Assembly (NCBI GenBank): GCA_012270995.1
Contig: JAAXHG010000197.1
Span: 1 to 64,000, forward strand
Direction: 5' to 3'
From: Vicinamibacteraceae bacterium
Lineage (GTDB): Bacteria > Acidobacteriota > Thermoanaerobaculia > Multivoradales > Multivoraceae
DNA: 64,000 nucleotides
The stretch's first letter is position 1, and each line of letters opens with the position of its first letter. Made by a program: the position numbers and the translations under genes. A model generated the notes under the pieces. That model searched no databases. It had not been told where the DNA came from and worked only from the letters and a program-made list of their open reading frames with translations. Of the stretch, positions 21,448 to 25,438 are shown piece by piece.

Positions 21448-22593
21448 GTGACGTCCCTCACGCTTCGGGAACACGTCGCCGAACCCGCGAACCTCTGGAT
21501 ACGCCACGGCTTCTCCCGCTGGCCGCCTGCCAGTGAGGACGGACGGCTTTGCTGCGATTTCGCCACTGGTGGATTGCGGATCGCGGACGCCCGGCCGGCG
21601 CCTGCCGCCTCCGACGTTTGGCGACTCGTCCGCGGGGCCGTCGACGTCGTCTACGTTCCCCCGCTCCCGGCCGATTCCGAGCCGCTCCGCGCGGCGATCG
21701 TCGAGGCCGCGGGGGCCGCCGGTGCGCCGCTTCTTCTGCACGTCGTGGCGGCTAGCCTGGCGTCGGCGCCGGCCGCCGGCTGGCCATGGCTGCGCTTGGG
21801 CGCCGCGCATCCGCCCGGGCCCGCAGTCGGGGACCCGCCCCTCGGCTCGGCGTCGACCGCTGGCGACGAAGCCTCCGGCGGCGACGGTCTGGAACCGACG
21901 GACCGGTTCACCCGCTTCCCGGTCCCGGACGCTGGCGACGAACTCCCGCGCAACGCCACCATCGCCGTCGACCTGCTCGATTACCTGGTGGCGGAGGCGG
22001 CCCTGCTGCGGGAGAAGTTCCGCGAGGGTCCCCAGCCCGACCTGCCTTTCGCGCCAGTCCCGGCTCGGCACGCGACCCTGGTCTGGCCTCTCGTCACCGG
22101 CTGGACGGATCAGTTGGCCATGGTGGATGCGGCCATGCCCCGGCTCGCGGCCGTTGGGGCGCGTCGCGTCGTGCCTCGCGCGATGACGCTCGATGCCCGC
22201 GAGCGCCACCTCCTCGCCGAACGACTGGAGCGTGCCTGGCCGGATGCCTTCGACGCCGTCTTCCACGGCGACGAGTCGCCCCCGGACGAGGCGGCCTTCC
22301 GCGGCGCCGCCGAAGCCGCGGGTCTCGAGCACCGCCTGCCGCGGCCGCTGCCCGCGCCTCCGCTGCGGCCCCGGCTACGCCTCGCCCGCGAACTCGCGGG
22401 CCACCTGATCGAACTCGGCGACGCCGCCGCTACCGGCGGCGACGCCTACTACCGGGCCGCCCGCTTCCTCGACCGCGACGAGGTCGACATCGAAGCCGCC
22501 GCCCGCGAAGGGAACCTCGGCGTCCTGCCGTGGCTGGAGGAGCCGGCCAGACAGGCAGTGGAGGAGTGGTTCGGCCGGCTGGCGGAAGCCTGA
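21448..22593 (+). CDS. Unknown 381-residue protein downstream of ribE
   Basis: I do not recognise a family. The protein is soluble (no signal peptide or membrane segment), Ala/Pro/Arg-rich and contains few Lys. Distinct parts are an alpha/beta-looking N-terminal half (DVVYVPPLPADSEPLRAAI), an acidic Gly/Ala-rich linker around residues 130-160, and a C-terminal half with WPLVTGWTDQLAMVDAAMP and VFHGDESPPDEAAF, then helices. The GTG start is 4 bases from the ribE stop, so it is probably cotranscribed with riboflavin genes. It meets the STAS/HATPase gene tail to tail 2 bases on. Codon use matches the neighbours, so it looks coding. A weak pattern of two alternating alpha/beta halves could hide a Rossmann- or TIM-like fold. 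Confidence 0.6.
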   Translation: MTSLTLREHVAEPANLWIRHGFSRWPPASEDGRLCCDFATGGLRIADARPAPAASDVWRLVRGAVDVVYVPPLPADSEPLRAAIVEAAGAAGAPLLLHVVAASLASAPAAGWPWLRLGAAHPPGPAVGDPPLGSASTAGDEASGGDGLEPTDRFTRFPVPDAGDELPRNATIAVDLLDYLVAEAALLREKFREGPQPDLPFAPVPARHATLVWPLVTGWTDQLAMVDAAMPRLAAVGARRVVPRAMTLDARERHLLAERLERAWPDAFDAVFHGDESPPDEAAFRGAAEAAGLEHRLPRPLPAPPLRPRLRLARELAGHLIELGDAAATGGDAYYRAARFLDRDEVDIEAAAREGNLGVLPWLEEPARQAVEEWFGRLAEA

Positions 22594-22595
22594 GT

Positions 22596-23933
22596 CTATT
22601 CGTCGGCGGGTCCGGCCGTGTCGGCGGCGACGGCGGACTGCGGTTCCGCCTGCTTCCGCGTTCGAGCGAACGTCTGGCCCGCGCGCTGCATGATGGCTTT
22701 GTCGATCAACCCATGTACGACGGGCCGCATCCCGGTATTGCGCACTCTCGCGCTGAAGCTAAGCGGGCCGAGCTCGGCGAACAGCTTGCCGACAAGTTCG
22801 TCCGCGAAGCTGCTGGAGATCAAGGGAACTCCGGCCCAGTCCAGAAGGAGAGGTTTGTCTGGCTCTGCATTCAGGAGGTTGAGACTCTTGTTCCTGATCT
22901 GGTTTCCGGCCATGCGGGATCCGAAGCCGACCCTTTCGTCGCGCAGCCGGAGCCTGACGGCGCTTCCGTCGTCCGTCTCGTAGATCGCCTCGACCACGTC
23001 CACGGGGCGGTGCGGTCCGGTGCCGAAGTCGAGTGCTTCGGAGAGGTCGAAGCTCGTGTCCAGATCGATGTCGAGGTAGACGAAGGTGCCGTGGAACGTT
23101 AGCCGGGGGCCGCGCTTGTAAGGAGTGGACTCTCCGTTTCGATAGACGACGCTGGCTCGACCCGATGTGATTTCGATGGAGCCTTCGGACATTGTCGCGA
23201 TTCGGAGAGCGCCGGCCAGTCCATTGCCTTGGCCGATGTCGGAATGGCGCGTGACTCCCGCCTCGAGGGCCTTGTAGATGGCGTCCGCGTCGTCCGTGAG
23301 TTCAGGGTAGCTCTCGCGGAGGGACTCGGGGATGCCGCGGCCGGAGTCGGCCACGCCCACCGCGACCTTGCGCGTCTTCTTGAAGGTGCTGACTTGCAGT
23401 ACTCCGCCCAGAGGGCTGTCGGCGTGGGTGAGCACGTTGTCGGTGATCTCGTTGATGGACCATTCGAGAGCGCCGATGTCGTCTCTTTGCAGGGAGGCGA
23501 TCCCTCCCAGGAGAACCTGCAGTGCCTCTCCAACCAGCCTGTGTTGCTGCTCGGCATTGCGGAACCGACGCGCGGGAACGTGGCCGGGATGAACGGTGGT
23601 GCTCTCCGGGTAGGTACCGGGTTCCAACAGATAGGCCCAGTTGGAGTTCAGGAAGAGCCGTTGAAGGTAGCTGTGCGCCGGGAGGATGACGGAGACGTCG
23701 AGACCGTCGTGGCGAAGGTTATCGACGCTTGTGATGACGGGAAGGACGCCATTCGGGAAGGCACTTTCGCACCGGGAGAGGTCGAGGACGACGTCCTCGT
23801 ACCCTCGTTCAAGGCAGTCGGCAAGGCACCACCTGAATTGATTGGAGTTGACGTCCGCCAGGAAGAGAATTCGGTTCTCTTCTCGCTTGACGGTATACTT
23901 CTTGGGTGCGGTTTGGGTGGTTGAAGTCAACAT
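22596..23933 (-). CDS. STAS-like / HATPase / STAS-like (DUF4325) regulatory protein
   Basis: A 445-residue three-part protein. Residues about 13-110 look like a STAS domain (EDVVLDLSRCESAFPNGV). Residues 150-290 are a GHKL ATPase, with N box EWSINEITDNVLTHAD (157-172), G1 VADSGRGIPESL (D196xGxG) and G2 GQGNGLAGAL (234-243). Residues 320-415 resemble the DUF4325 STAS-like family (LLLDWAGVPLISSSFADEL). In partner-switching systems a STAS antagonist and a GHKL anti-sigma kinase are separate proteins; here both are in one chain. The ATG at 23933 has AAAGGA 6 bases upstream. It follows lysS after 17 bases. The target is unknown. No sigma factor or SpoIIE-type phosphatase is nearby. Confidence 0.78.
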   Translation of the reverse strand: MLTSTTQTAPKKYTVKREENRILFLADVNSNQFRWCLADCLERGYEDVVLDLSRCESAFPNGVLPVITSVDNLRHDGLDVSVILPAHSYLQRLFLNSNWAYLLEPGTYPESTTVHPGHVPARRFRNAEQQHRLVGEALQVLLGGIASLQRDDIGALEWSINEITDNVLTHADSPLGGVLQVSTFKKTRKVAVGVADSGRGIPESLRESYPELTDDADAIYKALEAGVTRHSDIGQGNGLAGALRIATMSEGSIEITSGRASVVYRNGESTPYKRGPRLTFHGTFVYLDIDLDTSFDLSEALDFGTGPHRPVDVVEAIYETDDGSAVRLRLRDERVGFGSRMAGNQIRNKSLNLLNAEPDKPLLLDWAGVPLISSSFADELVGKLFAELGPLSFSARVRNTGMRPVVHGLIDKAIMQRAGQTFARTRKQAEPQSAVAADTAGPADE

Positions 23934-23950
23934 CGGCGTTCCTTTGACGT

Positions 23951-25438
<1,488 letters not shown>

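Follow-up and report, generated by a model that had tools for sequence, protein, structure and literature searches.

What does a single polypeptide do that carries a GHKL ATPase between two STAS-like segments, and does the position of its gene directly behind lysS say anything about its function? These questions are raised by a locus in a 64,000-nucleotide stretch of DNA from a Vicinamibacteraceae bacterium, to which we refer as the window. A first-pass annotation, made from the sequence alone, had described a STAS-like segment, a complete Bergerat ATPase and a DUF4325-like STAS segment in one protein, had proposed that such a fusion could be a self-contained, ATP-driven switch, and had considered whether lysS might tie the gene to translation or starvation. 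The ORF was confirmed at exactly the position given there; its strand, which the annotation had left out, is minus, with an ATG start at 23933 and a stop ending at 22596. The 17-base distance to lysS was also correct, and at its other end the gene faces a convergent gene (Table 1). Values of dN/dS between three species range from 0.13 to 0.19, with dS near saturation, which indicates that the gene is under purifying selection.

Table 1. Features of the STAS-GHKL-STAS gene, its product and its neighbors in the window (coordinates are window positions; aa, residues of the 445-aa protein)
Feature	Position	Strand	Basis or remark
CDS, STAS-GHKL-STAS protein (P0001)	22596..23933	-	445 aa, ORF call and Pfam
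N-terminal STAS-like domain, aa 12-110; P60 at the phospho-serine position	23604..23900	-	fold matches and TM1442 profile alignment
GHKL (Bergerat) Ser-kinase-type ATPase, aa 116-293	23055..23588	-	Pfam HATPase_c; SpoIIAB Z 15.9 over 135 residues
N box, aa 157-170, EWSINEITDNVLTH	23424..23465	-	E162 and N166 invariant; N166 on CapK N218
G1 box, D196xG198xG200	23334..23348	-	homologue alignment
G2 box, G236-N-G238..G241	23211..23228	-	homologue alignment
C-terminal STAS (DUF4325), VapS-like, aa 317-425	22659..22985	-	Pfam DUF4325; PDB 9z7o VapS E 5.4e-6; fold
SSSFADE motif, aa 373-379, predicted acceptor S374 or S375	22797..22817	-	alignments to VapS and CapS
lysS, upstream neighbor	23951..25438	-	17-bp gap; judged functionally unlinked
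Convergent gene at the far border of the slot behind lysS, which varies within the genus	21448..22593	+	

The three segments proposed for the protein are all borne out by Pfam and by structure prediction. An AlphaFold model made with 52 homologues (pLDDT 91.2, pTM 0.87) is confident except in the tails and two loops, and comprises, from N to C terminus, a STAS-like domain, a GHKL kinase of the SpoIIAB type and a STAS domain belonging to DUF4325, i.e., STAS folds are predicted on both sides of the ATPase. The same domain order was found in 51 other full-length relatives from many phyla. Pfam matches HATPase_c at residues 156-268 (29.1 bits against a cut-off of 26.4) and DUF4325 at residues 343-401 (30.7 bits against a cut-off of 23). 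These are the only Pfam matches in the chain: there is none in the N-terminal third of the protein, and neither a PAS nor a PP2C phosphatase domain was found. The chain stops ~20 residues past the C-terminal STAS domain. Histidine-kinase names from NCBIfam were rejected, the matches being weak and far under their cut-offs.

Compared with solved structures, the modeled central domain (residues 116-293) is closest to SpoIIAB (Z 15.9, 135 residues, 2.4 Å), with topoisomerases and histidine kinases scoring lower (Z ~11 or less). All three boxes of the Bergerat fold that define a GHKL ATPase are present (N, G1 with its DxGxG motif, and G2), as had been read from the sequence, and they are essentially invariant in an alignment of 52 sequences, consisting of the 51 full-length relatives and the window protein. 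Identical in all 52 are N161, E162, D165, N166 and H170, D196 and G198, and G236, N237, G238 and G241. The features expected of a SpoIIAB/RsbW kinase are likewise found, namely a serine-kinase GHKL fold, a catalytic Glu (E162) and a Mg-binding Asn (N166).

Two systems that couple phage defence to DNA damage, each a two-gene switch (PMC13373217), provide the closest comparison. CapK, with an HTH-STAS-GHKL architecture, is activated by ssDNA and phosphorylates S54 of CapS, a STAS-wHTH protein (Chambers et al., EMBO J 2026, PMC13373217). For VapK, with a STAS-GHKL architecture, the proposal is that it phosphorylates the antitoxin VapS at S48, which frees the toxin VapC (PMC13373217). The kinase half of the window protein aligns with CapK (hhalign probability 94.9, E 4e-8; BLASTP E 8e-7; CapK sequence WP_001567866.1, traced via a published operator site in E. 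coli). The alignment spans the STAS-kinase part and puts CapK N218, a residue required for CapS phosphorylation (PMC13373217), on N166.

The N-terminal domain of the model (residues 11-107) matches anti-anti-sigma STAS proteins, with Z scores of 10.1 for TM1442 and 9.6 for RsbV. At its acceptor position, occupied here by P60, 35 of the 52 aligned sequences have Pro and one has Ser; as judged from the alignment, an acceptor serine is not conserved in this STAS-like domain. CapK contacts ssDNA through W68, to which F54 corresponds in VapK (PMC13373217). No aromatic residue aligns at the position of CapK W68, where the alignment is gappy, and the basic loop that contains K237 and K239 in CapK is not maintained throughout the STAS-GHKL-STAS family. 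The input signal may therefore differ from that of CapK.

Since comparison of the full-length model with the PDB mostly tests the ATPase, the C-terminal domain was also modeled alone (pLDDT 90.7). STAS domains make up most of its fold matches and occupy the leading ranks, with SLC26A11 (Z 8.1), RsbS and TM1442 (Z 7.3 each) and SpoIIAA (Z 6.7). Together with a score above the Pfam gathering threshold, these matches assign the domain to DUF4325. When a profile of the family's C-terminal domain was compared with solved structures, the best relative was VapS, whose S48 falls on S374 (position counted from the alignment, with the expression tag allowed for); the relationship to VapS is drawn from sequence, and the absence of VapS and CapS structures from the fold matches listed carries no weight. 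S48 is experimentally essential in VapS (PMC13373217). CapS S54 falls on the adjacent S375, in a weak alignment. Both serines are identical in all 52 sequences, as are R340, D378, E379 and R417.

With a VapS-like C-terminal domain, a CapK-like kinase half and CapK N218 falling on N166, the window protein is probably a serine kinase together with its own STAS substrate in one chain, the fused counterpart of CapK-CapS and VapK-VapS. A self-contained serine kinase-STAS switch is thus the best reading, because what resembles a CapK/VapK-VapS pair is here a single chain, and the first-pass proposal to this effect appears well supported by the predicted structure, the invariant residues and the homology to CapK/VapK and VapS. 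As in CapK-CapS, a STAS-like domain precedes a GHKL serine kinase with the active-site Asn, and the substrate is a STAS domain with a predicted phospho-serine. Some family members also lie in restriction-modification (RM) or defence neighborhoods, and two distant relatives (L090/L019 and L092) have an HTH-like N-terminal extension, as read from the alignment, resembling that of CapK. Unlike in CapK-CapS, kinase and substrate form one chain, there is neither a wHTH in the substrate nor an HTH in the window protein, and CapK W68 is not evidently conserved; moreover, no immune operon follows the window gene, the convergent gene being there instead. VapK resembles the kinase part in being a STAS-GHKL kinase without an HTH, and the substrate domain is VapS-like; however, VapK and VapS are separate proteins with a PIN toxin gene next to them, whereas the window protein is fused and no PIN gene adjoins it. 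No CapS-type wHTH protein, VapC or other effector was found beside the gene. A fusion of kinase and substrate is not mentioned in the text of PMC13373217, the one paper searched: "fused" occurs only for tags and in a reference title, and "fusion" is absent.

A possible sequence of events is as follows. The input module would be the STAS-like domain at the N terminus, which would pack against the kinase. On sensing a stress ligand (ssDNA in the case of CapK), the kinase would use ATP to phosphorylate the predicted acceptor, S374 or S375, in a C-terminal STAS domain, either its own or that of the other chain in a dimer. Phosphorylation would then break or make the contact of this domain with an output protein encoded elsewhere. 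PP2C phosphatases of the SpoIIE type may serve to reset the switch; the genome has six SpoIIE-type phosphatase matches. A role in stress or phage defence is likely by analogy with the two known systems, and also in view of the minority of RM neighbors.

Those neighbors raise an alternative, that the family supplies an accessory subunit or regulator of RM and defence operons and that the window copy is an orphan moved to the lysS slot. Copies lie in or beside type I loci (L016, L040, L090/L019, L092 and L094), at a type III locus (L028/L018) and at a type IIG-like locus (L097); the RM genes of L040, L092, L094 and L097 are confirmed by Pfam, and the remaining ones were read from sequence. About a tenth of the dereplicated genome loci (~6/62) are beside RM genes, type I RM models occur among the near genes and are absent from the top list of far genes, and an RM system precedes 88 of the 443 capKS pairs (PMC13373217). 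The majority of copies, however, have unrelated housekeeping genes for neighbors, some of them at chromosomal positions that are stable in Gemmatimonadota, and the control scans, whose listing leaves out singletons, point only weakly to enrichment: the ResIII enrichment near the gene (5 of 136) is inflated by one match that is probably UvrB and was not taken as proof. We regard a dedicated RM role as rather unlikely. When the neighbors at 80 loci were clustered, in the kind of neighborhood comparison envisaged in the first-pass annotation, no common neighbor appeared. The neighbor clusters that did recur came mostly from closely related Gemmatimonadota genomes or looked like spurious ORFs.

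The same neighborhoods bear on a classical anti-sigma partner switch, in which the kinase would also sequester a sigma factor and the C-terminal STAS domain would compete for it, as in SpoIIAB/SpoIIAA and Rv1364c. SpoIIAB is the best structural match, and the protein shares with SpoIIAB/SpoIIAA and RsbW/RsbV both the kinase fold and the principle of a STAS acceptor serine. There is also a precedent in one chain, the Mycobacterium tuberculosis protein Rv1364c, which has phosphatase, kinase and STAS domains on one polypeptide and acts on sigma F (PMC9138534), and the genome's SpoIIE-type phosphatases could reset this kind of switch as well. Yet SpoIIAB/SpoIIAA and RsbW/RsbV are separate proteins tied to a sigma factor, whereas the window protein carries one STAS-like domain more, at its N terminus, and no sigma factor gene lies nearby. 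Like Rv1364c, it has kinase and STAS substrate on one chain, but it lacks the PAS and PP2C domains of Rv1364c and starts with a STAS-like domain. No recurring sigma-factor gene was noticed, by eye, among the printed immediate neighbors of ~70 homologues, and VapS, to which the substrate domain is most closely related, targets a toxin and not a sigma factor. An anti-sigma function is therefore unlikely.

ATP could also drive a change in conformation without phosphotransfer, as in HSP90- or MutL-like GHKL proteins, with the STAS domains acting only as dimerisation modules. In gyrase, MutL and HSP90, GHKL domains work without phosphorylating proteins, and such domains are also among the fold matches; nevertheless, the similarity to SpoIIAB is the highest, and the invariant C-terminal serines would be left unexplained, so that we consider this reading quite improbable.

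How common is the serine kinase-STAS chain, and how unusual is the fusion? A scan of one genome per species, covering 84,980 species, yielded 80 relatives, most of ~385-450 aa. At strict thresholds, matches were found in 4 of 297 genomes of the window's phylum, and in 5 of 345 and 3 of 398 genomes in the phyla of a Bacteroidota and a Pseudomonadota member, respectively; the STAS-GHKL-STAS protein is rare. Its tree mixes phyla, with at least five changes required for Pseudomonadota, and the window clade adjoins members from Aminicenantes, Pseudomonadota and Rhodothermota at 54-56% identity, a pattern that points to horizontal spread of the gene. A scan of viral contigs found no relative; phage and plasmid collections contain a few, some of them split. 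In a sample of 349 Pseudomonadota genomes, there are 29 DUF4325 loci: at ~13 of them a small protein is encoded immediately behind a GHKL gene of its own, whereas 11 are in-frame with GHKL, so that GHKL-DUF4325 chains are common among DUF4325 proteins. Fusion of GHKL and DUF4325 is thus a recurrent state, and kinase and DUF4325 STAS domain associate either fused or split. The first-pass annotation had set the protein against known partner switches made of separate proteins; a fusion is not without precedent, as Rv1364c and these 11 chains illustrate. A broader picture can be offered tentatively, which as a whole we think less likely than not: that these proteins are widespread but rare single-chain stress switches, each a CapK/VapK-type kinase with a VapS-like substrate of its own and an unlinked target, which have moved horizontally across at least a dozen phyla, are sometimes housed in RM operons, and use the N-terminal STAS-like domain to read an input other than ssDNA.

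To return to lysS, the slot behind it was compared in the 19 species of the genus that have lysS, with protein names read from sequence. The gene follows lysS in two of them (G000 and G015). In nine others the space is taken by a HAD-like gene, in one by a dioxygenase-like gene and in one by an unrelated insert; in the remaining six it contains little or no sequence. It is a variable cargo slot in the genus (window positions 22594-23950; sister loci L108-L125). In a third species, G004, the gene lies away from lysS, flanked by the Res and Mod genes of a type III RM operon. In favor of a functional tie between the gene and lysyl-tRNA or translation, by way of the lysS operon, are the shared strand, the 17-bp gap and the presence of thrS (L055) and tyrS (L069), read from sequence, directly upstream of family genes in two unrelated lineages. 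Such a tie is nevertheless highly improbable given the variable slot, the two species of 19, the G004 copy and the lack of a recurrent translation neighbor among the loci compared. The suggested connection to translation or starvation is accordingly abandoned, and the position beside lysS appears to be chance, a case in which a suggestive operon position can mislead. Family genes following thrS, tyrS and lysS in unrelated lineages (L055, L069 and the window) nonetheless exceed a rough expectation, an observation made post hoc.

If the serine kinase-STAS reading is right, this conserved one-chain version would be a compact system for studying how a GHKL kinase recognizes a STAS substrate in cis. 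Two invariant serines and a defined kinase mutant provide a testable lead for a family annotated so far only as DUF4325 proteins.

Several further observations concern related sequences. The PADLOC model for DrmA of DISARM (PDLC02567) matches window residues 153-421 at positions 137-396 of 1750 (E 1e-35). We rejected DrmA as an identity for the window protein, which has 445 aa and no helicase match in Pfam and matches only the GHKL-STAS-like stretch of the model; that PDLC02567 contains a GHKL-DUF4325-like stretch suggests fused or mis-joined members in the model. At another locus (L034:2238-5343), a family member is directly followed by genes for an AAA (OLD-like) ATPase and a UvrD-like helicase in a Gabija-like arrangement. 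Four split GHKL kinase-STAS pairs (L145, L147, L150 and L164) have, in place of a PIN toxin, a small protein (147-219 aa), encoded right after the DUF4325 gene, that has a single hydrophobic helix at its N terminus. Two of these small proteins are alike (E 5e-6), and that of L161 is similar, without a clear membrane helix. They possibly represent a third type of effector, a membrane protein held by a STAS antitoxin. Directly after two other split pairs, PIN-like proteins with the motif DTNVW were read from sequence (L149:810-1403, minus strand; L151:1791-2366, plus strand), and these loci are likely vapKSC operons.
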